Under the pieces are notes generated by a model. The model did no database searches and was not told the origin of the DNA. It saw nothing but the letters and a program-made list of their open reading frames with translations. DNA of 64,000 nucleotides, taken from positions 186,001-250,000 of the forward strand of contig NZ_CP049867.1 of the NCBI RefSeq assembly GCF_011299595.1. Direction: 5' to 3'. Every line of letters starts with the position of its first letter. Positions within the stretch are counted from its first letter, which is position 1. The DNA comes from Nocardioides sp. HDW12B (GTDB lineage Bacteria; Actinomycetota; Actinomycetes; Propionibacteriales; Nocardioidaceae). The position numbers and the translations under genes were made by a program. Below are positions 4,423 to 18,577 of the stretch, piece after piece.

Positions 4423-4452
4423 TTGCCCCGGGTGACCCCGGTCACTTATGTT
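4423..4452 (+). promoter_or_regulatory. promoter of the dehydrogenase operon with palindromic site
   Basis: TTGCCC (4423-4428) and TATGTT (4447-4452) are 18 bp apart. The spacer contains GTGACCCCGGTCAC (4432-4445), a perfect GTGA-N6-TCAC palindrome of CRP/GlxR form. The same 14-mer occupies the promoter at 7952-7981. A site inside the spacer would favour repression. Confidence 0.6.
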
Positions 4453-4453
4453 C
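4441..4453 (-). promoter_or_regulatory. candidate SorC-regulator site
   Basis: On the minus strand this reads GAACATAAGTGAC. GAACATACGTGAC occurs at 7988-8000 upstream of the SorC-family regulator, a 12-of-13 match in opposite orientation. Just downstream, GTGCACAT (4454-4461) and ATGTGCAC (4483-4490) form a further inverted repeat. Binding is inferred, not shown. Confidence 0.45.
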
Positions 4454-4505
4454 GTGCACATCGGTTCATGCGTGACGCACATATGTGCACAACCCAGGAG
4501 TACGG

Positions 4506-5483
4506 ATGCCCCTCTCGCCCCTTCTCGACGTCGACCGTGGCCGCGCCGCGCTGCGCACCATGTGGCAGATCCGCCGCTTCGAGGAGGCCGTCGACGACCT
4601 CTTCGCCCGCGGGCTCATGCACGGCACGATGCACCTCTCGATCGGCCAGGAGGCCTCGGCCACCGGCGTCTGCCTGGCGCTGACCGACGGTGACGCCATC
4701 ACCTCGACCCACCGCGGTCACGGGCACTGCATCGCGCAGGGCGCCGACCTGGTGCGGATGATGGCCGAGCTGCTCGCCAAGGAGACCGGCTACTGCCGTG
4801 GCCGCGGCGGCTCGATGCACATCGCGGACGTCGCCACCGGCAACCTCGGCGCCAACGGCATCGTCGCCGGTGGCATCCCGATCGCGGCGGGCGCAGCGCT
4901 GGCCTACCAGATGCGCGGCGAGGACCACGTCGTCGCGTGCTTCTTCGGCGACGGTGCGGCCAACGAGGGCGCCTTCCACGAGGCGGTCAACCTGGCGGCG
5001 ATCTGGAAGCTCCCCGTGGTCTTCGTGTGCGAGAACAACAAGTACGGCATGTCCTTCTCCACCGAGAAGTCGATGGCGATCGACACCGTGGCCGAGCGCG
5101 CCAAGGGCTACGGCATCCCCGGGGTCACCGTCGACGGCAACGACCTCGAGGCCGTCCACGAGGCCGCCTCGGACGCGGTCGCCCGGGCGCGCGCCGGCGA
5201 GGGCCCGACCCTGCTGGAGAACGTGACCTACCGCTGGAAGGGCCACAGCAAGTCGGACAAGAACCTCTACCGCACCAAGGAGGAGATCACCGAGTGGCGG
5301 GGCAAGGACCCCATCGTCCGCTTCGAGGAGCGTCTCCGCTCGGAGGGCGTGCTCACGCAGGAGGACGTCGACGCGGTGCGCGCCCAGGCGCTCGAGGACG
5401 TGCGCAACGCCGTCCGCGAGGCCAACTCCGCCCCCGACGCCGACCCGACCGACCTCCTCGACGCCGTCTTCGCGTCGGCCTGA
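4506..5483 (+). CDS. thiamine-diphosphate-dependent dehydrogenase E1 alpha (acetoin/2-oxo acid type)
   Basis: E1 alpha of a 2-oxo acid or acetoin dehydrogenase complex; with E1 beta it forms the TPP-dependent decarboxylating or cleaving component. The 325-residue protein shows [24 protein letters not shown], and the TPP/Mg motif [15 protein letters not shown] running to CENNKYGMS. The compact length and [10 protein letters not shown] context are closer to acetoin-dehydrogenase AcoA than to pyruvate dehydrogenase, so substrates could be hydroxyketones rather than 2-oxo acids. The ATG at 4506 is chosen over GTG 4485 because AGGAG lies 5 bp before it. E1 beta and E2 follow immediately; no dihydrolipoamide dehydrogenase is present, so E3 must come from elsewhere. 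Confidence 0.9.
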
Positions 5484-5503
5484 GCCCGAGAGGACCAGCA
5501 GCC

Positions 5504-6505
5504 ATGAGCAGCCCCACCAGCACCCGCACCATCACCTACTCCGAGGCCATCCGCGAGGGCATCGGCCAGGCCATGGAGGCCGACGACAGCGTCTTCATGC
5601 TCGGCGAGGACATCGGCGTCTACGGCGGCGCCTTCGGGGTCAGCGGTGACCTCTACCACCGCTTCGGCCCCGAGAGGATCCGGGACACCCCGATCTCCGA
5701 GCTCGGCATCGTCGGCGCCGCCGTCGGCGCCGCGCTGGCGGGCATGCGCCCCATCGTCGAGATCCAGTTCTCCGACTTCACCAACCAGGCGATGGACCAG
5801 ATCGTCAACCAGGCGGCCAAGATCCACTTCATGCTCGGCGGCGCGGCGTCGGTGCCGATGGTGCTCCGGGCCCCGCTCGGCTCCGGCACCGGTGCCGCCG
5901 CCCAGCACTCGCAGAGCCTGGAAGCGTGGTTCGCCCACGTGCCGGGCCTCAAGGTGGTCATGCCGGCCACGGCCGAGGACGCCAAGGGCCTGCTGCTGTC
6001 GGCGATCGACGACCCGAACCCGGTCATCGTGCTCGAGCACAAGCTGCTCTACCGCACCTCCGGCCCGGTCCCCGAGGAGGCCGTGCGCATCCCCCTCGGC
6101 AAGACCGCGGTACGTCGTACCGGCGCGGACCTGTCGATCGTCGCCACCGGCGTGATGGTCTCCCGGGCGCTCGAGGCCGCCGAGACGCTGGCCGCCGAGG
6201 GCATCGAGGTGTCGGTCATCGACCCGCGCACGCTCTCACCGCTCGACGACGCCCCGATCCTCGCCGACGTCGCCCGCACGGGACGGGCCCTGCTCGTGCA
6301 GGAGGCGCCCGGCCACGTCGGCTTCATGGCCGAGATCGCGGCCCGGATCTCCGAGTCGCCGACCCTCTACCGGCTGCTGGCGCCGATCAAGCGGCTGAGC
6401 GGGCTCAACGCCCCCATCCCCTACGCCCCGCAGCTCGAGACGGCCTCCGTGCCGCAGGTCGACGACATCGTCGAGGCGGCCCTGACGATCATGAAGGAGT
6501 CCTGA
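5504..6505 (+). CDS. thiamine-diphosphate-dependent dehydrogenase E1 beta
   Basis: The partner of E1 alpha, 333 residues. It begins after a short Ser/Thr-rich leader with [15 protein letters not shown], then [33 protein letters not shown], a transketolase-type pyrimidine-binding domain, [18 protein letters not shown], and [19 protein letters not shown], with the family's conserved His. The C-terminal transketolase-like domain has [12 protein letters not shown] and [16 protein letters not shown]. The ATG at 5504 is preceded by GAGAGGACC; the gap after E1 alpha is 20 bp. Its stop overlaps the start of E2 by one base (TGATG), indicating tight coupling of the complex subunits. Confidence 0.92.
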
Positions 6506-7863
6506 TGGCGCGCCTGGCGATCCGCATGCCCAAGATGTCCATGACCATGACCGAGGGCGAGGTGTCGCAGTGGTCGGCGAAGGTCGGCGACACCGTCACC
6601 GAGGGTGACGTGGTCTGCGAGGTGATGACCGACAAGGTCGACATGGAGGTCGAGTCCACGGTCTCGGGCGTGCTGGCCGAGATCGTCGTCGAGTCCGGCA
6701 CGGTCGACGTCGGCGCCGTCATCGGCTGGGTCGAGGGCGAGGACACCGGGGGAGGGTTCGGCGACCTGCTGAGCGAGCCCGAGAAGGCTCCCGAGCCCGT
6801 CCCGCCCGCGCCGGCCGAGGACGACCTGCCGCAGGCCGGTGCCGCGCTGGCGAACGAGGCGCCCGGCGACGTGCTGCCCACCGAGGCACAGCCGCAGCAG
6901 CCGCAGGAGCCCGCCGACCTCGCATCGGCGGGGGAGGCCCGGGCGACCGAGCGGCAGGACGCCTCCGACGTGCGTCCCCCGGCGAGCAGCATCGTCGCCG
7001 CCGTCCCCCGCGCCCGCGGGCTCGCGACCGAGCGCGGCGTCGACCTGGCGCTGGTGACCGGCACCGGGCCCGAGGGCCTCGTCCGGGTCGGCGACGTGGA
7101 GGCCTACCTCGCGGCCTCCGCGCGCCCGGCCACCACCGAACCTGTCGCAGGCGCTGCGTCGTCCCCCGAGCCGGCGCCTGCGGCAGCCTCCACGGCCCCG
7201 GCGCGCACGGCGGAGCGGCCGGCGAAGGCGCCCACGGACCGCAAGGCGGCCGTGCGTGCGGTGGTGGCCCGCACGATGACGCCGAGTGCCGCGATCCCGC
7301 AGTTCACGGTGTGGCGCGAGATCGAGCTCGACGCCGCCGACACCCAGCGGCGCGGGGTCTCGTGGACCACCGTGCTGCTCCGGGCGTACGCCGCTGCGTT
7401 GCGTGACGTGCCCGACCTGCTGTGCCGCTGGGAGGACGGTCGGGCGACCGACGCCGGTCCGCCCGCGGTCGCGCTCGCCGTCGCCACCGACCGGGGCCTG
7501 CTGGTCCCGATCTTCCGGGAGCCGGACCGCACCGCGGCCCCGGAGCTCGACCAGGAGATCCGCGCCGTCGTCCGCTCGGCCCACACCGGCAAGCTGGACA
7601 AGGCCTACCTCGGGGTGGCCAACGGCTCGGTGTCCAACCTCGGGGGCCAGGGCGTCGACCGCTTCCAGGCGCTGCTGACGCCACCCCAGGCCAGCGTGCT
7701 GAGCCTCGGCAGCATCCGGCAGCGGCCCGTCGCGGTCCCGGGCGGGGTCGGCCTGGCCCTGACCGTCCAGGCCGGTCTGACGGTCGACCACCGGGTCGCC
7801 GACGGCGCGCACGCCGCCACGCTGCTCGCCCGCCTCGCCGAGCGCCTCGGCGCCGGCGGCTGA
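6505..7863 (+). CDS. dihydrolipoamide acyltransferase E2
   Basis: The acyl-transferring core of the complex, 452 residues. The lipoyl domain (1-78) carries MTDKVDMEVES, with Lys44 as the lipoylation site. An Ala/Pro/Glu-rich linker follows, then a peripheral-subunit binding domain (about 170-205, VPRARGLATERGVDLALV...GLVRVGDV), a second linker, and the CAT catalytic domain (about 240-450) ending with LTVDHRVADGAHAA, the DHRxxDG active-site motif. Only one lipoyl domain is present. The organisation is standard for acetoin or branched-chain E2. Its position after E1 alpha and E1 beta, and upstream of a PTS operon with a shared promoter motif, suggests it processes a product of the imported sugar alcohol. 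Confidence 0.9.
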   Translation: MARLAIRMPKMSMTMTEGEVSQWSAKVGDTVTEGDVVCEVMTDKVDMEVESTVSGVLAEIVVESGTVDVGAVIGWVEGEDTGGGFGDLLSEPEKAPEPVPPAPAEDDLPQAGAALANEAPGDVLPTEAQPQQPQEPADLASAGEARATERQDASDVRPPASSIVAAVPRARGLATERGVDLALVTGTGPEGLVRVGDVEAYLAASARPATTEPVAGAASSPEPAPAAASTAPARTAERPAKAPTDRKAAVRAVVARTMTPSAAIPQFTVWREIELDAADTQRRGVSWTTVLLRAYAAALRDVPDLLCRWEDGRATDAGPPAVALAVATDRGLLVPIFREPDRTAAPELDQEIRAVVRSAHTGKLDKAYLGVANGSVSNLGGQGVDRFQALLTPPQASVLSLGSIRQRPVAVPGGVGLALTVQAGLTVDHRVADGAHAATLLARLAERLGAGG

Positions 7864-7872
7864 CGGTCGCAC

Positions 7873-7893
7873 GGGGCACGCGTCGCGTGCCCC
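7873..7893. terminator. hairpin after the E2 gene
   Basis: GGGGCACGC / GCGTGCCCC form a perfect 9-bp stem with a three-base loop, 10 bp after the E2 stop. No T-tract follows, so termination is possible but unproven. Confidence 0.5.
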
Positions 7894-7951
7894 GCGCGGC
7901 TCCGGCCCACGACCGGACCCAACTCCGGACCAAGTCGGGCCCTCCAGCCCC

Positions 7952-7981
7952 TTGACGTGACCCCGGTCACATCTCTATACC
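7952..7981 (+). promoter_or_regulatory. promoter of the SorC-PTS operon with the same palindrome
   Basis: TTGACG (7952-7957) and TATACC (7976-7981), spaced 18 bp, form the best-looking promoter in the window. GTGACCCCGGTCAC (7957-7970) overlaps the -35 element and spacer and is identical to the site in front of the E1 alpha gene. Confidence 0.7.
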
Positions 7982-7987
7982 TGTACT

Positions 7988-8000
7988 GAACATACGTGAC
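7988..8000 (+). promoter_or_regulatory. candidate SorC autoregulatory site
   Basis: GAACATACGTGAC lies just after the -10 element. It matches the minus-strand motif at 4441-4453 in 12 of 13 positions, suggesting both operons share a second regulator, most simply the SorC protein encoded next. Confidence 0.45.
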
Positions 8001-8023
8001 GACCCAGACGCACAGAGGTGACA

Positions 8024-9064
8024 ATGCCCACGCCACGCGACCCCGCGACGCTGATGGCTGCTGCGCGCCTCTACTACCTCCAGGGCCGCTCCCAGGCCGA
8101 GGTGGCCACCGCCCTGGGCACCAGCCGGTCCAACGTCTCGCGGATGCTCAGCGAGGCGCTCAAGCAGGGCATCGTCGAGATCCGCATCCACGACCCCGCC
8201 GGTCGCGAGCACCAGCTCGAGGAGCGGATCCGCGAGGCCTTCGGCCTCCGCGAGGTCCGGGTGGCCCACGTCGGCAACGCCGCCGGCACCAGCCTCGAGG
8301 AGAAGGTCGGCACCCAGGCCGCGCGGCTGCTGATCGAGAACCTCACCGACGGCATGACGGTCGCCCTGTCGTGGGGCCACGCGCTGCAGTCGATGGTCTA
8401 CGCCACCACCGCCCAGCACGAGCACTACCGGCTCAACCTGGTGCAGCTGGTCGGCGGACTGTCGTCGATCAGCAACGAGGTGAGCGGCCAGGAGCTCGTG
8501 CGCGAGCTCGCCGTCCGGCTGGGCGCGGAGTACCGCTTCCTCCACGCCCCGGCGGTGCTGGAGTCGGCGGTCTCCCGCGACGCCCTCATGGCCGAGTCCT
8601 CCATCAGCGCCGCCCTCGCCTCGGCCGGTGAGGCCGACATCGCCTTCGTCGGCATCGGCGCCCCGACCGCCGGCTCGAGCTCGGCCATCCTCGAGTCGCT
8701 CAAGCTCAGCGCCGACGAGGAGAAGGCCTTCTGGGCCGCGGGTCCGGTCGGCGACATCGCCGCCCGCTACTACGACGCCGAGGGCCGCCAGGTCCGCGGC
8801 GCCGTGAGCGACCGGGTGCTGGCGATCAGCCTCGACCAGCTCGCCCGCATCCCGCACGTGGTCGGCGTCGCCCAGGGCCGCGCGAAGTCGCGCGGGGTCC
8901 TCGGAGCGATCCGCGGCCACCACATCGACTCCCTGGTCTGCGACGAGGTCCTCGCCCGCAGCCTGCTCGCCGACGCCCGCGCCGACGCCGGCGACACCTC
9001 CGGCCCCGCCCCCGACCTCGCCACCGACCTCACCGCCGTCGTCCCCGACACGAAAGGTGCCTGA
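8024..9064 (+). CDS. SorC/DeoR-family sugar-binding transcriptional regulator
   Basis: A 346-residue regulator. The N-terminal helix-turn-helix (about residues 8-50) contains ARLYYLQGRSQAEVATALG and SRSNVSRMLSEAL; the remainder is the SorC sugar-phosphate-binding domain, with NLVQLVGGLSS, ALMAESSISAAL, IAFVGIG, GAVSDRVLAIS and GVAQGRAKSRGVLGAIRGHHIDSL segments. Family members sense phosphorylated sugars or polyols and control the adjacent catabolic genes; EryD of the Brucella erythritol operon is a known relative. The ATG at 8024 is taken as the start because GAGGTG lies 4-9 bp upstream; GTG 8018 would sit on top of that site. It leads the PTS operon and probably regulates both it and the E1/E2 operon. 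Confidence 0.92.
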   Translation: MPTPRDPATLMAAARLYYLQGRSQAEVATALGTSRSNVSRMLSEALKQGIVEIRIHDPAGREHQLEERIREAFGLREVRVAHVGNAAGTSLEEKVGTQAARLLIENLTDGMTVALSWGHALQSMVYATTAQHEHYRLNLVQLVGGLSSISNEVSGQELVRELAVRLGAEYRFLHAPAVLESAVSRDALMAESSISAALASAGEADIAFVGIGAPTAGSSSAILESLKLSADEEKAFWAAGPVGDIAARYYDAEGRQVRGAVSDRVLAISLDQLARIPHVVGVAQGRAKSRGVLGAIRGHHIDSLVCDEVLARSLLADARADAGDTSGPAPDLATDLTAVVPDTKGA

Positions 9065-9065
9065 C

Positions 9066-9506
9066 ATGCACACCGCCGCCCTGGTCCTCCTCGGAGCCGT
9101 CGTCGCCGGCTGGATGCTCCAGCTCTACGTCTCCTACAAGCAGGCGACCGCCTTCAACGCCGACGTCCGCGCGCTGCGCTCGCAGGGCACCGTCACGGTC
9201 GGCTCGGGCGGGCGGCGCTACCGCGGCGGGCGGGCATTCGTCGCCCTGGCCGTCGACGAGCGCGGCGTCGTCGCGGACGCCCTCTGCCTCAGCGGCATGA
9301 CCACCTTCGCCCGCGGCAAGGCCCTCCCGGGCGTGCTCGGCGTCAAGGTGAGCAAGCTGTGCGGCGACGCCGAGCTGCCCGGCCTGACCTCGGCCCAGCG
9401 CGAGGCGGCCCGCGAGGCCGCGACGCTGCTGAGCCAGGCCCGACGCGCGACCCCCACGAACCTCGGGAACACCGTTTCCGGAGCGCTCCAGCGCGCCGGA
9501 GGCTGA
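9066..9506 (+). CDS. gutM: GutM-like glucitol operon protein
   Basis: A 146-residue protein of the GutM family, originally described as the glucitol operon activator. It starts with a hydrophobic segment (ALVLLGAVVAGWMLQLYVSY, about residues 5-24), which suggests membrane anchoring. The conserved segments that follow are GGRRYRGGRAFVALAVDE, ALCLSGMTTFARGK and a predicted helical C-terminus. Its position between the SorC regulator and the EIIC gene matches glucitol-type PTS loci. A separate GTG at 9057 is possible, but the ATG at 9066 has AAAGGTG upstream and follows the regulator stop by one base. The molecular role of GutM proteins is poorly defined. Confidence 0.85.
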   Translation: MHTAALVLLGAVVAGWMLQLYVSYKQATAFNADVRALRSQGTVTVGSGGRRYRGGRAFVALAVDERGVVADALCLSGMTTFARGKALPGVLGVKVSKLCGDAELPGLTSAQREAAREAATLLSQARRATPTNLGNTVSGALQRAGG

Positions 9507-9515
9507 GCAGGACAC

Positions 9516-9554
9516 CGCGCGCCGTCGTGGGGTCGTAGCCCACGAGGACGCGCG
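9516..9554. other. intercistronic hairpin between gutM and srlA
   Basis: CGCGCGCCGTCGTGGG and CCCACGAGGACGCGCG pair over 16 positions with two mismatches and a 7-base loop. Located within the operon, it could set different levels for the regulatory genes and the transporter by processing or attenuation. Confidence 0.5.
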
Positions 9555-9659
9555 GCGCAGGAGATCGAGCGGGACCTTCTCGCTCAGCACCAACCGGGAT
9601 GCCGGTCCAGCATCACAAGGAACTGGTCGTCACAGACGGCCGACTCGACAGGAGCAATC

Positions 9660-10286
9660 ATGCCACTCGTCCACCTGGTCTCGGGCGCGGTCAGCGCCTC
9701 GGAGACCCCGACGGTCGAAGAGCCGACCGGCTTCTTCGGCGCCCTCGCCGACGGCGCCGACAAGTTCATCGGAGTGTTCAACGCCGGCGGTGAGACCTTC
9801 GTCGGTCTCGTCACCGGCATCATCCCGACGCTGATCGTGCTGCTGACCGGCGTCAACGCCCTCATCCGCATCATCGGTCCCGAGCGGATCGACAAGGTCG
9901 GCGAGATGGCGGCTCGGCCGGGGATCCAGTACTACCCCGTGCGCTACCTGCTGCTGCCGATCCTCTCGGTCTTCTTCCTCACCAACCCGATGGCCTACAC
10001 CATGGGCCGCTTCCTGCCCGAGCGCTACAAGCCGGCGTTCTACGACTCCGCGGTCAGCTTCGTGCACCCGATCACCGGCCTGTTCCCGCACGCCAACGCC
10101 GGTGAGCTGTTCGTCTACCTCGGCATCGCGGCCGGCATCACCACCCTCGGCCTCAGCCAGGGCGACCTGGCCGTCCGCTTCCTGCTCGTCGGCCTCGTCG
10201 TGATCCTCATCCGCGGCATCGTCACCGAGCTCATCACCGCGCGCATGCTCTCGCGTCGCACGACCAACCAGGAGGTGGCGGCATGA
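9660..10286 (+). CDS. srlA: PTS glucitol/sorbitol-type permease IIC component
   Basis: Membrane component of a glucitol-family phosphotransferase system, 208 residues. After a polar leader, hydrophobic segments include [62 protein letters not shown] and [48 protein letters not shown] is the characteristic family stretch. Together with the EIIC2-like, EIIB and EIIA proteins that follow it would import a polyol and phosphorylate it on entry. The ATG at 9660 has AGGAG 4 bp upstream, and the stop overlaps the next gene by four bases. Substrate specificity cannot be read from sequence and need not be sorbitol. Confidence 0.9.
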
Positions 10287-10864
10287 GCGCCACGAACACC
10301 ACCACGTCCGGCGGAGCCATGGGCGGCTTCAACAAGGTCCTCGTGACCGTCGGCAAGAGCGTCGGCGGCGTCGTCGGCACCCTCTACCAGGCCGGTCGCG
10401 ACACGATCGACACCGTCATCCGCAACATTCTGCCCTTCATGGCGTTCATCGCCCTGCTGATCGGCATCATCACCGAGACCGGCATCGGCGACGCGCTCGC
10501 GCACCTCATCGAGCCGCTCGCCAGCAACCTGCTGGGCCTGCTCGCCATCAGCGTCTTCTGCGCGATCCCGGTGCTCTCGCCGGTGCTCGGCCCCGGAGCC
10601 GTCATCGCGCAGGTCGTCGGCGTGCTGCTCGGCACCCGGATCGGCGAGGGCGACATCCCGCCGCAGTACGCCCTCCCGGCGCTGTTCGCCATCAACCCGC
10701 AGGTCGGCTGCGACTTCATCCCCGTCGGTCTGGCGCTCGGAGAGGCCGAGACCGAGACGGTCGAGGTCGGCGTGCCGGCGGTGCTGATCTCGCGGCTGTT
10801 CACCGGTCCGCTGGCGGTGGTCATTGCCTACTTCGCCAGCTTCGGGCTCTACTCGAGCAGCTGA
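10283..10864 (+). CDS. srlE: PTS glucitol-type permease, C-terminal domain of SrlE as a separate protein
   Basis: This 193-residue protein corresponds to the membrane half of E. coli SrlE (EIIBC). Hydrophobic segments include [43 protein letters not shown] and [21 protein letters not shown]; the loop [25 protein letters not shown] is the family hallmark. Here the membrane half precedes the phospho-carrying B half, which is its own downstream gene, so the usual B-C fusion is split and reversed in order. The ATG overlaps the srlA stop. It should pair with SrlA in the membrane to form the transport path. Confidence 0.9.
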
Positions 10865-10883
10865 CCCCTTCCGCACCCCACGT

Positions 10884-10899
10884 GAGCTCCGCGGAGCTC
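10884..10899. other. perfect 16-bp palindrome upstream of EIIB
   Basis: GAGCTCCGCGGAGCTC is a perfect palindrome in the 51-bp gap between the two SrlE-type genes, just before the AAGGAG ribosome-binding site of the EIIB gene. It may be an RNA hairpin tuning EIIB translation. Confidence 0.4.
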
Positions 10900-10915
10900 G
10901 GACAAGGAGCACGAC

Positions 10916-11287
10916 ATGAGCGAGTACAAGTCCGCCAAGGTGTCCGCCGGCCGGGGCGGGTGGGGCGGTCCGCTGACCATCACCCCCACCGCCGACCGTC
11001 CGCTGGTCGCCTCGATCACCGGCGGTGGCATCCACCCCGTCGCGCAGCGCATCGCCGACCTGACCGGCGGCGAGGTGATCGACGGCTTCTCGGGCAACGC
11101 GCCGTTCGACAAGCTCGCCGTGGCGGTCATCGACTGCGGTGGCACGGCCCGGGTCGGCGTCTACCCCATGAAGAAGGTCAAGACCGTCGACATCCACGCC
11201 ACCTCGCCGGCGGGACCGCTGGCGCAGTTCATCACCGAGGACCTGTTCGTCTCCGGGGTCAAGCCCGAGGACGTGGCCGAGGCATGA
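10916..11287 (+). CDS. srlE: PTS glucitol-type EIIB component
   Basis: The phosphocarrier half of SrlE as a free 123-residue protein. It contains SITGGGIHPVAQRIADLTGG and VAVIDCGGTARVGVYPMKK, in which the Cys is the expected phosphorylation site of glucitol EIIB, and ends with GPLAQFITEDLFVSGVKPED. It accepts phosphate from the EIIA protein encoded next and passes it to the polyol held by the permease subunits. The ATG at 10916 has AAGGAG upstream at good spacing; its stop overlaps the EIIA start by ATGA. Confidence 0.92.
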   Translation: MSEYKSAKVSAGRGGWGGPLTITPTADRPLVASITGGGIHPVAQRIADLTGGEVIDGFSGNAPFDKLAVAVIDCGGTARVGVYPMKKVKTVDIHATSPAGPLAQFITEDLFVSGVKPEDVAEA

Positions 11288-11691
11288 GCAGCGTCGTCTA
11301 CGAGTCCTCGGTGACCGCGGTCGGCTCGCAGGTCGAGCCGTTCCTGGGCCACCAGGTCATGATCCTGTTCGGCGCGGACTCCCCGCCCGAGCTCCACGAC
11401 ATCTCGGTGCTGCACCGCGCCGAGGTGGCCGAGGACGGGCCGCGGCCCGGGGACACGATCCACATCGGCGGTGCCGACCTCGAAGTCCTGGCCGTGGGGG
11501 ACGTCGTGCGCGACAACCTCCTCAACCTCGGCCACCTCGACCTCAAGGCCGACGGCCGCACCGAGCCCAAGCTGCCCGGTGACGTGTGCGTCCCGAAGGG
11601 CGACCTGCCGCTGCCCGCGGCCGGCCAGCGCTTCGCGATCACGCGCCGCGGAGCCGCGGCTGCCGGTGCCGGCGTCGGGGGAGGTGCCTGA
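11284..11691 (+). CDS. srlB: PTS glucitol-type EIIA component
   Basis: A 135-residue soluble phosphotransferase of the glucitol EIIA family. Family-like segments are VYESSVTAVGSQV, QVMILFGADSPPELHDISVLH (which includes a candidate phospho-His), GDTIHIGGADLEVLAVGDVV, NLLNLGHLDLKADG and PGDVCV. A Gly/Ala-rich tail of about 15 residues follows. It would take phosphate from HPr, which together with Enzyme I must be encoded elsewhere. Start is fixed by the ATGA overlap with EIIB. The gene ends one base before the ATG of the DRL-like oxidoreductase, so transport and the first enzymatic step are one transcript. Confidence 0.88.
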   Translation: MSSVVYESSVTAVGSQVEPFLGHQVMILFGADSPPELHDISVLHRAEVAEDGPRPGDTIHIGGADLEVLAVGDVVRDNLLNLGHLDLKADGRTEPKLPGDVCVPKGDLPLPAAGQRFAITRRGAAAAGAGVGGGA

Positions 11692-11692
11692 G

Positions 11693-13021
11693 ATGGCCTA
11701 CCGCGACAGGCTCCAGCAACGGCTGGAGGAGACCGGGCGCCCGCTGCGCGTCGGGCTGGTCGGGGCCGGGCAGATGGGCACCGGGCTCGCCGCCCAGCTG
11801 CTCCGGATGCCGGGCATCACGCTCTCGGCCGTCTTCGACGTCCAGCACGAGCGGGCCGTCGAGGCGCTGACCCAGGCCGGCGTCGACCCGCAGGACGCGG
11901 CCGACGCCGAGTCCGGGGCGGCGATCATCGAGGGCGGCGGCAGCGTCGCGCTCGGTGGGCTCGACCTGCTCGACCGGCTCCCGCTCGACGTGGTCGTGGA
12001 GGCCACGGGCGTGCCCGAGGTGGCGGTCCAGGTCGCCGTACGCGCGCTCGCCGGAGGCATCGACGTCGCCACCCTGACCGTCGAGGCCGACGTGACCGTC
12101 GGCCGCTACCTCGCCGAGCTCGCCCGCCAGTCGGGCGCGATCTACTCGGTGTGCCGCGGCGACGAGCCGGTGGAGACCAAGATCCTCGTCGACTACGCCC
12201 GAGACCTGAACTTCGAGGTCATCTGCGCCGGGAAGGGCAAGAACAACCCGCTCGACCCGCTGGCCAACCCCGACACGCTCGCCGAGCGTGCCGTGACCAA
12301 GCAGATGAACCCGAAGATGCTCACCAGCTTCGTCGACGGCAGCAAGGCCATGATCGAGATGGCCTCGCTGGCGAACACGACCGGGCTCGGCGTCTCGACG
12401 ACGGGCATGCACGGCCCGCCGTCGACCGTGCCGACGCTGCACCAGACCTTCGCGCTGAAGGAGGACGGCGGCGTGCTCGACCGTCCGGGCGTGGTCGACT
12501 ACTGCACCGGGCCGGTGGCGCCGGGCGTCTTCGTGGTCATCCGCACCGAGGACCCCTACGTCCACCACGAGATGTCCTACCTGCAGATGGGCGAGGGCCC
12601 CTACTTCGCCCTCTACCGGCCCTACCACCTGGCCAGCATCGAGGCGCCGCTCACGGTCTACGAGATGGTGCTCGACCGACGGGCCAGCCTCGTCACCGAG
12701 CACTGGAACGCCGAGGTGGGCGCCCAGGCCAAGCGTGACCTGAAGGTCGGCGACACCATCGACGGGATCGGCGGCTACACCGTGCGCGGTCTCATCGAGG
12801 ACGCCGAGGAGTTCGCCGGGCAGGGCCACGTCCCGCTCGGTGTCCTCGCCGGTGCACGCCTCGTGCGCGACGTGCCGGTCGGCCAGACGCTGTCGTACGA
12901 CGACGTCGAGCTGGTCGAGGACTCGCTGGTGGTCCGGATGCGGCGCATCCAGGAGCAGATGGACGCCGCCGACGCCGAGACGCCCAAGCTCGTCGACCTG
13001 CGGACCAGCCTGCCCGGCTGA
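11693..13021 (+). CDS. DXR-like (DRL/DXR-II family) NAD(P)-dependent oxidoreductase with SAF domain
   Basis: A 442-residue oxidoreductase. The N-terminal Rossmann domain has RVGLVGAGQMGTGLA (19-33) and VVVEATGVPEV; the central domain has VEADVTVGRYL, SVCRGDEPVETK, ICAGKGKNNPLD, FVDGSKAMIEMASLAN, TGMHGP, GVVDYCTGPVAPGVFVV and MGEGPYFALYRPYHL; a SAF domain (about 355-425) closes the protein. This domain order matches the family containing Brucella DRL, a second type of 1-deoxy-D-xylulose 5-phosphate reductoisomerase that makes 2-C-methylerythritol 4-phosphate (MEP). Placement directly after a polyol PTS suggests the reverse or a related reaction on an imported polyol phosphate. The ATG at 11693 follows GGGGGAGGTG. 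Family assignment is confident; the reaction here is inference. Confidence 0.85.
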   Translation: MAYRDRLQQRLEETGRPLRVGLVGAGQMGTGLAAQLLRMPGITLSAVFDVQHERAVEALTQAGVDPQDAADAESGAAIIEGGGSVALGGLDLLDRLPLDVVVEATGVPEVAVQVAVRALAGGIDVATLTVEADVTVGRYLAELARQSGAIYSVCRGDEPVETKILVDYARDLNFEVICAGKGKNNPLDPLANPDTLAERAVTKQMNPKMLTSFVDGSKAMIEMASLANTTGLGVSTTGMHGPPSTVPTLHQTFALKEDGGVLDRPGVVDYCTGPVAPGVFVVIRTEDPYVHHEMSYLQMGEGPYFALYRPYHLASIEAPLTVYEMVLDRRASLVTEHWNAEVGAQAKRDLKVGDTIDGIGGYTVRGLIEDAEEFAGQGHVPLGVLAGARLVRDVPVGQTLSYDDVELVEDSLVVRMRRIQEQMDAADAETPKLVDLRTSLPG

Positions 13022-15864: not shown

Positions 15865-16086
15865 GTGGTCGCTCCTGTCGGTCGCCTCGGTCGTCTCAGT
15901 CGTCTCGGTCGTCGGCCGCCGCCCGCACGGGAACGGCCCGCCCCTGATTGTGCGGGGGGAGCGCGCCGAGACGGCCGAGGCTCACCGGGCACGCGCGGGT
16001 TCACAGCCCGGTGCAACCGAATCACCGGTGGAGGCGTCTGAGGGGCAGAGGTGGCCGCAGGGGCCACCGCGACCACGGAGGACCCG

Positions 16087-16743
16087 ATGCCCCAGACCAC
16101 GCCCCCGTTCCCGACCTCCACCGCGACGTGCGCTGCGCGCCGTACCGGGCGTCGGTCGGCCCCCGTGCGGGGACTCGTGCTCGGCGCCCTGACGCTCGCC
16201 CTGCCCCTCGCCCTGTCCGTCACGGAGGGCGCGTCCGCCGACGAGTTCACCTACCTCACCGGCACGCCGGGCGACGACCGGCTGCGCGGCACGGCGACGG
16301 CCGACGACATCCGCGGTCTGGCGGGCGACGACCGGCTCTGGGGGCTGGCGGGGGCTGACGTGCTCAGCGGCGGCCGCGGCGGCGACGAGCTCCGTGGCGG
16401 CGCCGGCGTCGACGGCCTGTACGGCGGCGCGGGCGGGGACTTCCTGCTCGGGGGTGACGGCGCCGACCTGGTGTCCGGCGGCGCGGGCAACGACTTCCTC
16501 AACGGCGGCAGGGGACCGGACCAGATCGACGGCGGGGACGGGCGCGACTCTGTCGAGGACGACGGGGGCCGTGACCGCGTCGTCCTCGGGGCCGGCGACG
16601 ACGGCTACGTCGCCTGGCAGGTCGACGGCGACCGCGACGAGATCTGGTGCGGTCCCGGCGACGACTTCGTCGGCTACTGGGGCGACCCGGACCCGGCCGA
16701 CACGCTGCACGGCTGTGAGCGGATCGCCGACATCGCCCACTGA
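16087..16743 (+). CDS. secreted RTX-type calcium-binding repeat protein
   Basis: A 218-residue exported protein. The Arg-rich N-terminus is followed by the hydrophobic segment GLVLGALTLALPLALSVTEG (about 30-49) and a signal-peptidase-like site ending ASA before DEF. The mature part is largely nonapeptide repeats of the GGxGxDxL type (for example GGAGVDGLYGGAGGDFLLGG, GGDGADLVSGG and GGAGNDFLNGG), which bind calcium and fold as a beta roll. The C-terminus has two Cys (IWCGPGDD, LHGCERI) that could form one disulfide. The ATG at 16087 is preferred over GTG 16051 because GGAGGA lies 6 bp upstream. It has no adjacent secretion apparatus, and the role is unknown. Confidence 0.85.
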   Translation: MPQTTPPFPTSTATCAARRTGRRSAPVRGLVLGALTLALPLALSVTEGASADEFTYLTGTPGDDRLRGTATADDIRGLAGDDRLWGLAGADVLSGGRGGDELRGGAGVDGLYGGAGGDFLLGGDGADLVSGGAGNDFLNGGRGPDQIDGGDGRDSVEDDGGRDRVVLGAGDDGYVAWQVDGDRDEIWCGPGDDFVGYWGDPDPADTLHGCERIADIAH

Positions 16744-16801: not shown

Positions 16802-17533
16802 GTGAGGACGACCGGTGAGCGACGTGCGGCGCTCGTGCTGCTGGCCGCGGGGGACGGTCGCCGCTCGGGGCACCACACCAACAAGGTGCTCCTGCCGCTG
16901 GCCGGTCGCCGCGTCCTGACCTGGTCGATCCGCTGGGCCACGGTCCTGCCCGCGATCTCGCGGGTCGTCGTCGTGATCCGTGAGCAGGACCGCGCCGAGG
17001 TGGAGGCCGTCCTCGACCGCGAGGCCCCCGACGTCCGCGTCAGCCTTGTCGTCGGAGGGGCCACCCGCCACGGCTCGGAGTGGGAGGCGCTGCAGGAGCT
17101 GGCCCCGGAGATCGAGAGCGGCGAGCTCGACGTGGTGCTCATCCACGACGCGGCCCGCCCGCTCGCGGGCACCGACCTGTTCGCCCGCGTCGTCGCCACG
17201 GCGGCCGCCGAGGGCGGAGCCATCCCGGTGCGCGAGCACGGCAGCCTGGTCGGCCTCGACGGCAGCCCCGGTCCCTCCGACCGGGTCGTCGCCGTCCAGA
17301 CCCCTCAGGGGTTCGCGGCGGACCGGGTGCTCGCGGCGTACCGGCAGGCCGCGGTCGACGGCTTCGTCGGCACCGACACCGCCAGCTGCGTGGAGCGCTA
17401 CACCGACGTCCCGGTCTGCGGGGTCGACGGCGACGTCGGCAACATCAAGATCACCTTCCCCGAGGACCTCTTCCTCGCCGAGCGGCTGCTGGCCAAGGCC
17501 GACTGGGACCTCTCCCGAGGAGCGGCGTCATGA
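16802..17533 (+). CDS. ispD: IspD-family cytidylyltransferase
   Basis: A 243-residue nucleotidyltransferase of the IspD/TarI family; IspD makes CDP-methylerythritol from MEP and CTP in isoprenoid synthesis. Visible motifs are LVLLAAGDGRRSG with a downstream Lys (TNKVLLPLAG), GGATRHGSE, VLIHDAARPLAG, VQTPQGFAADRVL, GTDTASCVERY and VGNIKITFPEDLFLAERLL. The usual ispF partner is absent and the neighbour is a zinc-ribbon protein, so this may be a paralogue rather than the main IspD; in many actinobacteria the main copy sits beside carD and ispF. The substrate could be MEP or another polyol phosphate. The start is a leaderless GTG, and the stop overlaps the next gene by ATGA. Confidence 0.85.
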   Translation: MRTTGERRAALVLLAAGDGRRSGHHTNKVLLPLAGRRVLTWSIRWATVLPAISRVVVVIREQDRAEVEAVLDREAPDVRVSLVVGGATRHGSEWEALQELAPEIESGELDVVLIHDAARPLAGTDLFARVVATAAAEGGAIPVREHGSLVGLDGSPGPSDRVVAVQTPQGFAADRVLAAYRQAAVDGFVGTDTASCVERYTDVPVCGVDGDVGNIKITFPEDLFLAERLLAKADWDLSRGAAS

Positions 17534-17838
17534 CCGCCGAGCACGCCGACCTCTGGTGCGAGACCTGCGACCAGGTCACCGAGCACGAGCTGCACTACGC
17601 CGGCCGGCTGCTGGAGTCGGTCCGCTGCCAGCGCTGCGGCCACCACGTGGAGATGTCGGCCCGTGCGCTCATCCCGGCGTACGCGATGGACCTCGAGCAC
17701 CGCGTCGTCAGCAAGCCCCGCCGGCTCTGGCTGCGGGCCAGCCGCGACTGGCGCGGGTTCCTCAAGGGGCTGCCGCGCGCGACGGCCCGCCAGCCGCTGA
17801 AGTTCGCCCGCGAGTTCCGCGAGCTCTTCCGCCGCTGA
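17530..17838 (+). CDS. small zinc-ribbon protein
   Basis: A 102-residue protein of unknown function. The N-terminal half has two CxxC pairs, LWCETCDQ (C10, C13) and VRCQRCGHH (C33, C36), spaced 20 residues apart as in a zinc ribbon. The C-terminal half is strongly basic and helical (VVSKPRRLWLRASRDWRGFL, then FAREFRELFRR), suggesting nucleic-acid or membrane-surface contact. It overlaps the IspD-family gene by ATGA and is therefore co-translated with it. No family name can be assigned with confidence. Confidence 0.75.
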   Translation: MTAEHADLWCETCDQVTEHELHYAGRLLESVRCQRCGHHVEMSARALIPAYAMDLEHRVVSKPRRLWLRASRDWRGFLKGLPRATARQPLKFAREFRELFRR

Positions 17839-17884: not shown

Positions 17885-18577
17885 TCAGCCGCTGCGGGTG
17901 CGGCGGCGGACCTCGTCGAGGCACTGGAGCAGGTGCAGCGAGGCCAGGTCGTCGACCCGGCGCGCCAGGGACGGCGCGCGCAGCATGCGGACCGGCCCGT
18001 GGCGGTGCACCCACGCCGCCAGCGCGGTCTCGCTGCCGAGGGGGAGGAGGTCGTCGTCCCCGGCCCGCGCCAGCGCGCCCGCTGCGACGAGCACGGGGGA
18101 GGCGACGGTCGCGAGGGTCTCGCGGTCGACGGTGCCGGTGATGCGGCTGCCGGCCATGTTCTTGACCGTGTCGGTGACGGGTCGGTAGGCGACCACGGAG
18201 GCGTCGCGGTCGTCGGCGCCCGCGGCCAGGACCTCGGCGAGGAAGTCGCGCCCCACCAGCGGGCACAGCGGGTCGTGGACCAGGACCGGTCCGTGGTCGG
18301 CGGCGCTCGCGCGGGTCTGCCGGTGCCACTCGGTCGGGGTCAGGACCTGGGCCGAGCGGTGGCCGGCCACCGCCTTCGCCGTACGCCGCACGTCGGCCGG
18401 GTCGGCGACCACGTCCAGGCGGCCGGGCAGCAGCTCCTCGAGCACCGCCAGCGCGTGCTGCAGCAGCGGCCGCCGGTGGAGGGTGGCGAAGGCGAGCTCG
18501 CCGCGACCGACGACGGTGAGGACAGCGCGCACCGCGCGCACGCGGTCGCCCGCCGGCTCACGGGCGTCGGCGACCAT
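17885..18577 (-). CDS. degenerate IspD-like nucleotidyltransferase
   Basis: A 230-residue protein related to the IspD family but with an eroded active site. The canonical glycine-rich AAGxGxR loop is replaced by AVLTVVGRGELA. The region matching HDAARP is LVHDPLCPLVG, while AYRPVTDTVKNM keeps the family's PxTDTxK segment, followed by GTVDRETLATVASPVLV. Loss of the CTP-binding loop argues against normal cytidylyltransfer. It may be a regulator, a pseudo-enzyme or an enzyme with another nucleotide. It converges with the intact IspD-family gene and its zinc-ribbon partner 46 bp away, and starts with ATG at 18577. Confidence 0.75.
   Translation of the reverse strand: MVADAREPAGDRVRAVRAVLTVVGRGELAFATLHRRPLLQHALAVLEELLPGRLDVVADPADVRRTAKAVAGHRSAQVLTPTEWHRQTRASAADHGPVLVHDPLCPLVGRDFLAEVLAAGADDRDASVVAYRPVTDTVKNMAGSRITGTVDRETLATVASPVLVAAGALARAGDDDLLPLGSETALAAWVHRHGPVRMLRAPSLARRVDDLASLHLLQCLDEVRRRTRSG

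Follow-up and report, generated by a model that had tools for sequence, protein, structure and literature searches.

Enzymes of the DXR type II family (DXR-II or DRL) are annotated as alternative isoprenoid enzymes, and their known role, as in Brucella abortus (structures 3upl and 3upy) and Chloroflexus aurantiacus, is biosynthetic and reductive, on the step between 1-deoxy-D-xylulose 5-phosphate (DXP) and 2-C-methylerythritol 4-phosphate (MEP). Other described systems resemble further parts of the locus reported here: glucitol/sorbitol PTS operons (srlAEB, gutM) in their transporter parts and GutM; acetoin dehydrogenase operons (acoABCL-acoR) in their E1alpha/E1beta/E2 layout and, by analogy, in a chemistry that splits a hydroxy methyl ketone into acetyl-CoA and an aldehyde; and erythritol/threitol pathways in that a tetritol is inducibly taken up, phosphorylated and oxidised. 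Published data are taken below from the available text of PMC3847144, PMC3424233, PMC3150298, PMC13001223 and PMC10663253. In its available part, a 2026 review gives the distribution of DXR-II no defining pattern except over-representation among certain pathogens, and in the open-access literature we found no bacterial catabolic pathway for methylerythritol, apiitol or hamamelitol.

We analysed 64,000 nucleotides of the Nocardioides sp. HDW12B genome (the window), in which ten plus-strand open frames at 4506-13021 form the cluster. The first three encode a thiamine-dependent complex: the dehydrogenase subunits E1alpha (4506-5483; PF00676, 322.5 bits, with the GDG...N thiamine motif) and E1beta (5504-6505), and an E2 dihydrolipoyl acyltransferase (6505-7863) with lipoyl site TDKVDME and catalytic DHRVADG. 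There follow a SorC/DeoR-type sugar-binding regulator (8024-9064; PF04198, 199 bits), GutM (9066-9506; PF06923, 62.8 bits), and a four-gene glucitol-type PTS comprising the IIC subunit SrlA (9660-10286), the C-terminal half of SrlE as a gene of its own (10283-10864; PF07663), its N-terminal, IIB half likewise (10916-11287; PF03612, 173 bits), and the IIA protein SrlB (11284-11691), the only PF03829 match of the genome, which also encodes EI and HPr. Last comes a DRL-like oxidoreductase with a SAF domain (11693-13021). The preliminary description of this gene content, with an identical palindrome in both promoters, is borne out, all genes being present with open frames. All PTS parts of a glucitol operon are thus here, but SrlE is split and its halves swapped in order, the regulator is of the SorC type, and family profile searches of the ten cluster proteins found no sorbitol-6-phosphate dehydrogenase. 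Unlike erythritol/threitol pathways, the ten genes include neither a kinase nor a GlpD-type oxidase, and isomerisation of a branched polyol would take their place.

The cluster is almost certainly a catabolic operon. The reading that we somewhat favour is that the operon pair serves inducible catabolism of 2-C-methylerythritol, or of another methyl-branched tetritol much like it, through MEP and DXP. The PTS (SrlA, split SrlE and SrlB, with EI and HPr from elsewhere) would import the polyol and phosphorylate it to MEP, DRL would oxidise MEP to DXP, and E1alpha/E1beta/E2 would cleave DXP by way of hydroxyethyl-TPP to glyceraldehyde 3-phosphate and acetyl-CoA. It is quite likely that DRL acts on a substrate of the MEP/DXP type; we think it probable that the complex cleaves DXP, and methylerythritol is, with a little less assurance, our candidate for the natural substrate. 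SorC may sense a pathway metabolite and bind the palindrome in both promoters.

That palindrome, the 14-bp GTGACCCCGGTCAC, lies at 4432-4445 upstream of E1alpha and in an identical copy at 7957-7970 upstream of SorC. Allowing one mismatch, the window holds two matches against 0.11 expected, a number reached in 0 of 100 shuffles; the whole 4.19-Mb genome has three exact copies, and none of a control pattern. The region could be read in nine family relatives, and in eight of them the form GTGACCNNGGTCAC, again with at most one mismatch, stands no more than 80 bp upstream of E1alpha or of a SorC gene, which in some cases is a second SorC copy; these positions account for 10 of the 11 matches in the nine relatives' loci; five more distant loci scanned had no match at the cluster. 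We consider the palindrome a probable SorC operator. The third exact genomic copy is followed, at a distance of about 60 bp, by a patatin-like gene.

The window DRL matches PF21135 (DRL_cat) at 213.5 bits (cut-off 27) and the SAF domain at 22.2 bits (cut-off 21), and the Brucella structures match it at 3.9e-90 (3upy, query residues 12-423) and 5.3e-90 (3upl). In Brucella numbering, by alignment to 3upy, it keeps K191, K193, H250, R320 and Y322, and changes Thr229 to Ala, Glu174 to Ile and Phe178 to Tyr; within the dimer cavity Arg320 and Tyr322 are thus retained, Glu174 and Phe178 altered. These changes belong to the window family, whose rows have Ala229 (10/10), Ile174 (10/10) and Tyr178 (9/10). 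Among E1-linked DRL rows overall, Lys191 and Lys193 are present in 78 of 78, and Thr229 in 69 of 78. Thr229 is described, in the available text, as absolutely conserved in DXR-II and as anchoring substrate and fosmidomycin. On the question of lost DXP/MEP-binding residues, which the preliminary description had named as evidence against its reading, the window enzyme tells in part against that reading: of the three fosmidomycin-anchoring residues both lysines stand, and Thr229 does not.

The closest functional evidence comes from C. aurantiacus. This organism has three DRL-domain genes, two of which group with DLO-type references; the third carries Thr229 and lies in a locus of the order SorC-E1a-E1b-E2-GutM-SrlA-SrlE-SrlE-SrlB-DRL, with the SrlE split and order of the window. 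All ten window proteins have counterparts in this cluster (DRL at 42%, E1beta at 62% and SrlA at 67%), and the listed pyruvate dehydrogenase genes Caur_1333-1335 are consistent with the cluster order. In the available text C. aurantiacus DXR-II is reported to complement DXR-deficient E. coli, a DXP/MEP activity, and the organism is classed as mevalonate-only. From its residues and its place in the tree, rather than from a locus tag, we identify the published enzyme as the putative product of the cluster DRL gene. The link of DRL to MEP would be strongest here, because an orthologous cluster holds a DXR-II that rescues a dxr mutant in a mevalonate-only organism. The MEP/DXP link proposed earlier gains independent support from this cluster and from adjacent IspD genes, and is weakened by the change of Thr229 to Ala in the window. 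In the DRL tree the DLO1 reference was a Deinococcus chosen by genus, and the DLO2 reference was C. necator N-1, matched to a strain that the paper tabulates. Holding the 38 non-DLO rows together against the 10 DLO-like rows was not rejected (p-AU 0.55, likelihood 1.76 higher), with deep support of 28/5.

The thiamine-dependent complex had been labelled acetoin-type, a label that fails because the window E1beta falls outside the group of an aco-like operon. In a quick tree of 61 rows the window E1beta and the DRL-cluster E1beta of other phyla form a group separate from the E1/E2/E3 operon of Bacillus altitudinis, linked to a sigma-54 activator, which we take to be aco; acetoin dehydrogenase was dropped as a family name on the grouping of E1beta. 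Where that operon has its sigma-54 activator, the window has SorC. Against curated pyruvate dehydrogenase E1 cut-offs, E1beta scores above (353.1 against the subfamily's 321) and E1alpha below (369.5 against 393.85). Pyruvate dehydrogenase, a related TPP enzyme, is reported in the available text to form deoxyxylulose from pyruvate and glyceraldehyde, and aceE mutants to make DXP.

The preliminary description suggested a survey of whether DRL co-occurs with srlA/E/B and TPP E1/E2 genes, and it does so across phyla: Actinomycetota, Bacillota, Chloroflexota, Spirochaetota and Alphaproteobacteria have DRL together with the cluster gene set. All nine window-family orthologs whose flanks can be read retain E1beta, E2, SorC, GutM, SrlA, both SrlE halves, SrlB and DRL; eight also retain E1alpha, and in the ninth the region ends before the E1alpha position. 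We aligned 84 DRL genes, drawn from partly fetched sets that had been selected on the PF21135 domain and nothing else, leaving out four short or duplicate rows (E1 near two, srl near one). Among the 48 with K191, Thr229 and R/K320, E1alpha plus E1beta lie within 10 kb in 24, the srl PTS in 29 and either in 31; near the others there is neither (Ser229 0/20, Ala229 0/1, remainder 0/15). For E1beta-type genes the background is about 2% per 21 kb (56 matches in about 65 Mb of sequence from 15 genomes, most of which carry the cluster). Counting against the favoured reading, neither E1 nor srl genes were within reach of 17 of these 48 Thr229 DRLs or of any of the 21 that have Ser or Ala at the position, and 13 of these 38 are less than 8 kb from a contig end. 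Outside the window family, residue 229 separates clustered from unclustered DRL, the cluster going with Thr229. Some DRLs that lack E1 and srl neighbours adjoin isoprenoid genes, and others an Rrf2-type regulator and an IleRS-like gene; the latter, in place of a PTS, flank the small-genome Tissierellales DRLs examined. Finegoldia magna, for which the available text reports DXR-II activity and no MEP pathway, counts neither for nor against the cluster reading.

Uptake varies around this core. Pseudoroseomonas, Nitratireductor, Terrarubrum and Rhizobium have the srl PTS version, while in Agrobacterium and two Sinorhizobium DRL and the thiamine-dependent complex are retained beside an ABC transporter and a PfkB or sugar kinase, and in Priestia beside an MFS transporter and FGGY kinase. 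Listeria, Enterococcus and bacilli of the B. altitudinis type have the srl PTS and DRL, with E1 absent at the locus. In Ligilactobacillus the DRL and srl PTS cluster carries transketolase and fructose-6-phosphate aldolase in place of E1/E2, and the Domibacillus DRL accompanies the same two enzymes. These loci, with the altered Thr229 of the window family, would suit a hydroxymethyl-branched polyol of the apiitol or hamamelitol type, which DRL would convert as an oxido-isomerase to the phosphate of a linear ketose, for instance xylulose 5-phosphate, for E1/E2 to turn into glycolyl-CoA or for the pentose phosphate pathway. We regard this as unlikely for the window, as an acyl-CoA-forming E1/E2 would fit a methyl ketone and be superfluous for xylulose 5-phosphate, which ordinary enzymes cleave, and C. 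aurantiacus DXR-II has reported DXP/MEP activity. Residue 229, tried as a marker of E1-linked against transketolase-linked DRL, was rejected, both having Thr.

The MEP cytidylyltransferase family gene IspD, at 16802-17533 on the plus strand (PF01128, 133.5 bits, cut-off 27), is the only intact-looking and sole strong IspD candidate of the window genome, which also carries DXR-I; a pattern search for IspF in the window found none. IspD adjoins the cluster at loci f1, f9, f16 and f31 and in Acidimicrobiales, Ktedonobacteria-type Chloroflexota and Salinicoccus, the last with an IspD from a different branch. On these grounds the PTS might make MEP mainly for IspD and the synthesis of isoprenoids, leaving any overflow to DRL and E1/E2. 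This salvage is improbable, since IspD is near just 6 of the 82 named DRL genes and none of the 17 on plasmids (by BLAST, which a divergent IspD could escape), the E1/E2/E3 module is degradative, and C. aurantiacus carries the cluster with no reported MEP pathway. An ortholog lies directly 3' of DRL in family relatives, and IspD also occurs near CarD in DRL-negative genomes of the window family, so the adjacency of IspD and DRL may be inherited. Being the only intact-looking copy and present in DRL-negative relatives, IspD was dropped as a cluster-specific paralog and retained as a linkage argument.

An ordinary sorbitol/glucitol operon, with DRL as polyol-phosphate dehydrogenase and E1/E2 as an unrelated pyruvate dehydrogenase, would suit SrlA, which exceeds the glucitol PTS (NCBIfam) cut-offs, and GutM, a glucitol operon gene; it is very improbable given the missing sorbitol-6-phosphate dehydrogenase, the palindrome common to both promoters and the persistence of E1/E2 beside DRL at loci that use a transporter other than the PTS. 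Least likely of all is a biosynthetic bypass in which E1 joins pyruvate and glyceraldehyde 3-phosphate to give DXP and DRL reduces this to MEP for the neighbouring IspD, for although PDH E1 variants make DXP and IspD is adjacent, it leaves PTS, SorC, GutM and E2 without a role, in a genome that also has DXR-I, and C. aurantiacus is reported as mevalonate-only.

If methylerythritol catabolism is the role of the cluster, it would account for DXR-II in genomes that have DXR-I or are reported to lack the MEP pathway, and would bring a new thiamine-dependent carbon-carbon cleavage and a biological sink for 2-methyltetrols, which paper titles give as products of isoprene photo-oxidation. The recurring gene set could make sense of DXR type II genes that occur here and there with no obvious biosynthetic role, and the PF21135 domain on its own is no proof of an isoprenoid role. 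The chances seem to us even that this is a widespread, previously undescribed catabolism running the isoprenoid pathway backwards with a dedicated DXP-cleaving complex, that much of the scattered DXR type II family is catabolic and came to serve biosynthesis in some lineages secondarily, and that the transketolase-linked relatives do the same for hydroxymethyl-branched polyols.

Downstream of IspD, a small zinc-ribbon protein with no Pfam match is encoded at 17530-17838 on the plus strand. A pattern search for such proteins was too strict and gave no matches, though BLAST finds them; in relatives they are linked to the cluster, to IspD or to both. The IspD and zinc-ribbon genes, overlooked in the preliminary description, travel with DRL in these relatives.

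All ten genes named in the preliminary description are present in the window, with open frames and one shared direction, as two blocks: E1alpha-E1beta-E2 of a thiamine-dependent (TPP) dehydrogenase complex, and SorC-GutM-SrlA-SrlE(C)-SrlE(N)-SrlB-DRL, in which genes of a glucitol-type (srl) PTS precede the DXR-type-II-like oxidoreductase DRL (11693-13021). The same 14-bp palindrome stands before both blocks (4432-4445 and 7957-7970), as that description had held; with up to one mismatch it matches twice in the window versus 0.11 expected, and the whole genome contains three exact copies against none of a control pattern. The third copy (G000 C1:4062164-4062177, locus L373) precedes a gene for a patatin-like phospholipase by about 60 bp. 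Because a match with at most one mismatch recurs no more than 80 bp upstream of a SorC gene or E1alpha in eight of nine family loci, the two blocks very probably form one regulon; at five more distant loci scanned the palindrome was not found at the cluster. The thiamine motif GDG...N is kept in E1alpha, as are the lipoyl and DHR..DG sites in E2. EI and HPr are encoded elsewhere in the genome, in which a second glucitol-type IIA was not found. When 197 genomes of the window's family, Nocardioidaceae, were searched with the window DRL (E 0.001 or better), 28 matched; ten close orthologs besides the window's own have 70-80% identity, one being a fragment at a contig end, and the same gene set occurs at all nine with readable flanks, though one region stops short of E1alpha. 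One relative, viewed closely, has an additional galactitol-type PTS and a second SorC.

Whether DRL keeps company with the srl PTS and TPP E1 across taxa had been posed as a survey question, and it does. Domain searches with PF21135 found DRL in 64/396 genomes of the window's phylum, 84/150 of the order of Anaerosalibacter and 56/251 of the phylum of Ktedonosporobacter; from these three sets 47, 20 and 20 loci were hand-picked, and neighbours were scored within 10 kb. Alignment was possible for 84 of 88 DRL genes, and four short or duplicate rows were set apart (E1 in two, srl in one). Among 48 genes with Lys191, Thr229 and Arg/Lys320 (Brucella DRL numbering), 24 have E1alpha and E1beta nearby, 29 the srl PTS and 31 either; E1 or srl neighbours occur beside none of 20 genes with Ser229, neither at the single Ala229 gene of this set nor at any of its 15 others. 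Pooling Thr, Ser and Ala229 as “DXRII-like” gives E1 in 24/69, srl in 29/69 and at least one in 31/69; for 13 of the 38 with neither, a contig end is no more than 8 kb away. A span of this size carries an E1beta-type gene at a background rate of about 2% (56 matches over about 65 Mb). Among named genomes, 79 loci were scanned, an uneven sample since they were the best by similarity to a Priestia DRL; of their 77 aligned DRL genes, in Bacillota, Chloroflexota and Spirochaetota, 34 have E1 and 55 have srl, and five further rows (E1 in four, srl in three) repeat Actinomycetota proteins already counted.

In the route that we favour, the PTS would deliver methylerythritol as MEP, DRL would convert MEP to DXP, and E1/E2 would cleave DXP to glyceraldehyde 3-phosphate and acetyl-CoA. 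The strongest link to MEP and DXP comes from Chloroflexus aurantiacus, whose DXR-II is reported to rescue DXR-deficient E. coli, and which the same paper classes as having the mevalonate pathway only (Carretero-Paulet et al., 2013, PMC3847144). Its genome contains three DRL-domain genes: one with Thr229, in a cluster DRL-SrlB-SrlE-SrlE-SrlA-GutM-E2-E1beta-E1alpha-SorC, and two others, which have Ser and Ile at that position and fall with references of the DLO type. Counterparts exist for 10/10 window proteins, split SrlE included (DRL 42% identity, E1alpha 52%, E1beta 62%, SrlA 67%, E2 30%, SorC 33%). The genome paper lists, among others, a pyruvate dehydrogenase E2 Caur_1333 and E1 Caur_1334/1335 (PMC3150298), which fits the gene order of the cluster. 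By residues and tree, rather than by locus tag, the published DXR-II appears to be the Thr229 cluster gene; a DXP-to-MEP enzyme would thus be encoded in a window-type cluster of an organism reported to lack the MEP pathway. Lys191, Lys193 and Thr229 are described as anchoring fosmidomycin in DXR-II (PMC3847144). Counting against the reading, residue 229 is Ala in all ten aligned rows of the window's family, whereas elsewhere the cluster goes with Thr229; Ile174 is found in 10/10 of these rows and Tyr178 in 9/10. We do not class the window DRL as a DXR-II; DXR-II is its closest kin, and it probably acts in the same way. The DRL tree lacks resolution in its deep branches.

IspD, the next MEP-pathway enzyme after the DRL step, provides a second line for the MEP/DXP reading. 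It lies directly 3' of DRL in family relatives, and near the cluster in three other Actinomycetota families (f9, f16, f31), Acidimicrobiales, Ktedonobacteria-type Chloroflexota and Salinicoccus, whose IspD belongs to a different branch. The window genome has DXR-I elsewhere, and its only intact-looking IspD is 3.8 kb downstream of DRL. The linkage may be partly inherited, as IspD in the window's family also occurs without DRL, near CarD; IspD is near only 6/82 named and 0/17 plasmid DRL genes. A weak IspD-like gene beside the intact one (17885-18577, minus strand; 43 bits, profile start unmatched) is perhaps the decayed original, and family relatives have the same pair near CarD. Between the DRL cluster and IspD lies a small protein with RTX calcium-binding repeats (16051-16743), secreted-looking by eye. 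After IspD comes a 102-residue zinc-ribbon protein without a Pfam match (17530-17838); its homologs occupy the same place in family relatives, and in Rubrobacteraceae-type DRL clusters they come after E2.

The cleavage step had been assigned to an “acetoin-type” dehydrogenase, a label that the E1beta tree does not uphold. In this quick tree of 61 proteins (44 from clusters at selected loci and 17 others), 43/44 cluster copies, drawn from five phyla, belong to a single 46-row group (SH-aLRT 96), with Hakubella outside. Three “other” rows are inside it: the Brevibacillus cluster copy itself (L233), a second Thermoanaerobacter copy (L242) and, from Bacillus altitudinis, a row of an operon that combines E1-E3 and SorC with a galactitol-type PTS and an alcohol dehydrogenase (L229). 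Outside it is the E1beta of a B. altitudinis E1/E2/E3 operon that precedes a sigma-54 activator and resembles acoABCL-acoR. By this tree the cluster complex forms a line of its own and is not an acetoin dehydrogenase; the proposed chemistry is what the two have in common. From pyruvate and glyceraldehyde, pyruvate dehydrogenase is reported to form 1-deoxyxylulose, and aceE mutants are reported to yield DXP (PMC3424233); the proposed DXP cleavage would be the microscopic reverse of such synthesis. Another kind of locus with this E1 family is L357 of B. altitudinis (genome G599), where E1-E2-E3 is joined by a galactitol-type PTS, a zinc alcohol dehydrogenase, SDR-type genes and SorC; this genome encodes DRL and the srl PTS at other places.

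Different uptake modules accompany the same core. Plasmid records of Agrobacterium and two Sinorhizobium have SorC, an ABC transporter, a PfkB or sugar kinase, DRL, E1alpha, E1beta, E2 and LpdA, with LipA in two of the three; Pseudoroseomonas, Nitratireductor, Terrarubrum and Rhizobium have DRL-E1-E2 with the srl PTS and adjoining EI (ptsP); and Priestia has DRL and E1-E2-LpdA with an MFS transporter and FGGY kinase. Aminobacter and Shinella have DRL-E1-E2, with no uptake module recognised within the 8 kb viewed. Genome G053 has two nearly identical DRL genes (L083, L082), each with E1 and E2; the srl PTS of one cluster is replaced in the other by two FGGY kinases and a GlpD-type oxidase. Other settings depart further: a Phyllobacterium DRL is accompanied by an ABC sugar transporter and by neither E1 nor PTS, in a Listeria record the locus has DRL and the srl PTS and lacks a TPP enzyme, and Ligilactobacillus DRL is partnered by transketolase and fructose-6-phosphate aldolase.

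Computation from sequence fits methylerythritol, its threo isomer or a hydroxymethyl-branched polyol alike. The E1/E2 complex frees an acyl group as a CoA ester and so favours a methyl compound; a hydroxymethyl-polyol variant, we suggest, would resemble the transketolase-linked DRL clusters. In the literature searched, DXR-II papers included, we found no catabolic pathway for methylerythritol, apiitol or hamamelitol, and a 2026 review describes Dxr-II distribution as lacking a defining pattern except over-representation among certain pathogens (PMC13001223). The component families are already known; the route, if right, is new.

DRL stands with transketolase and a fructose-6-phosphate aldolase at L132, L144 and L205; at the last, in Domibacillus, two near-identical DRL copies in opposite orientation flank these genes. 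At each of six further loci (L184, L190, L198, L208, L214, L222) DRL has a zinc alcohol dehydrogenase and FGGY kinases for company; neither E1 nor srl PTS was detected there. Also against the catabolic reading, many DRL genes have neither E1 nor the srl PTS nearby, and some of these had no telling neighbours at the loci viewed. In the Actinomycetota family f12 (L090, L091, L092, L099, L100, L116), DRL stands beside type 2 IPP isomerase and prenyl diphosphate synthase, apparently as a biosynthetic DXR-II operon; residue 229 is Ser in 5/6 of these. Small Tissierellales genomes (L323, L325, L326, L329, L330, L333-L335) have DRL with two recurrent neighbours, which from their sequence starts we take to be a regulator of the Rrf2 type and a large isoleucyl-tRNA synthetase-like protein.
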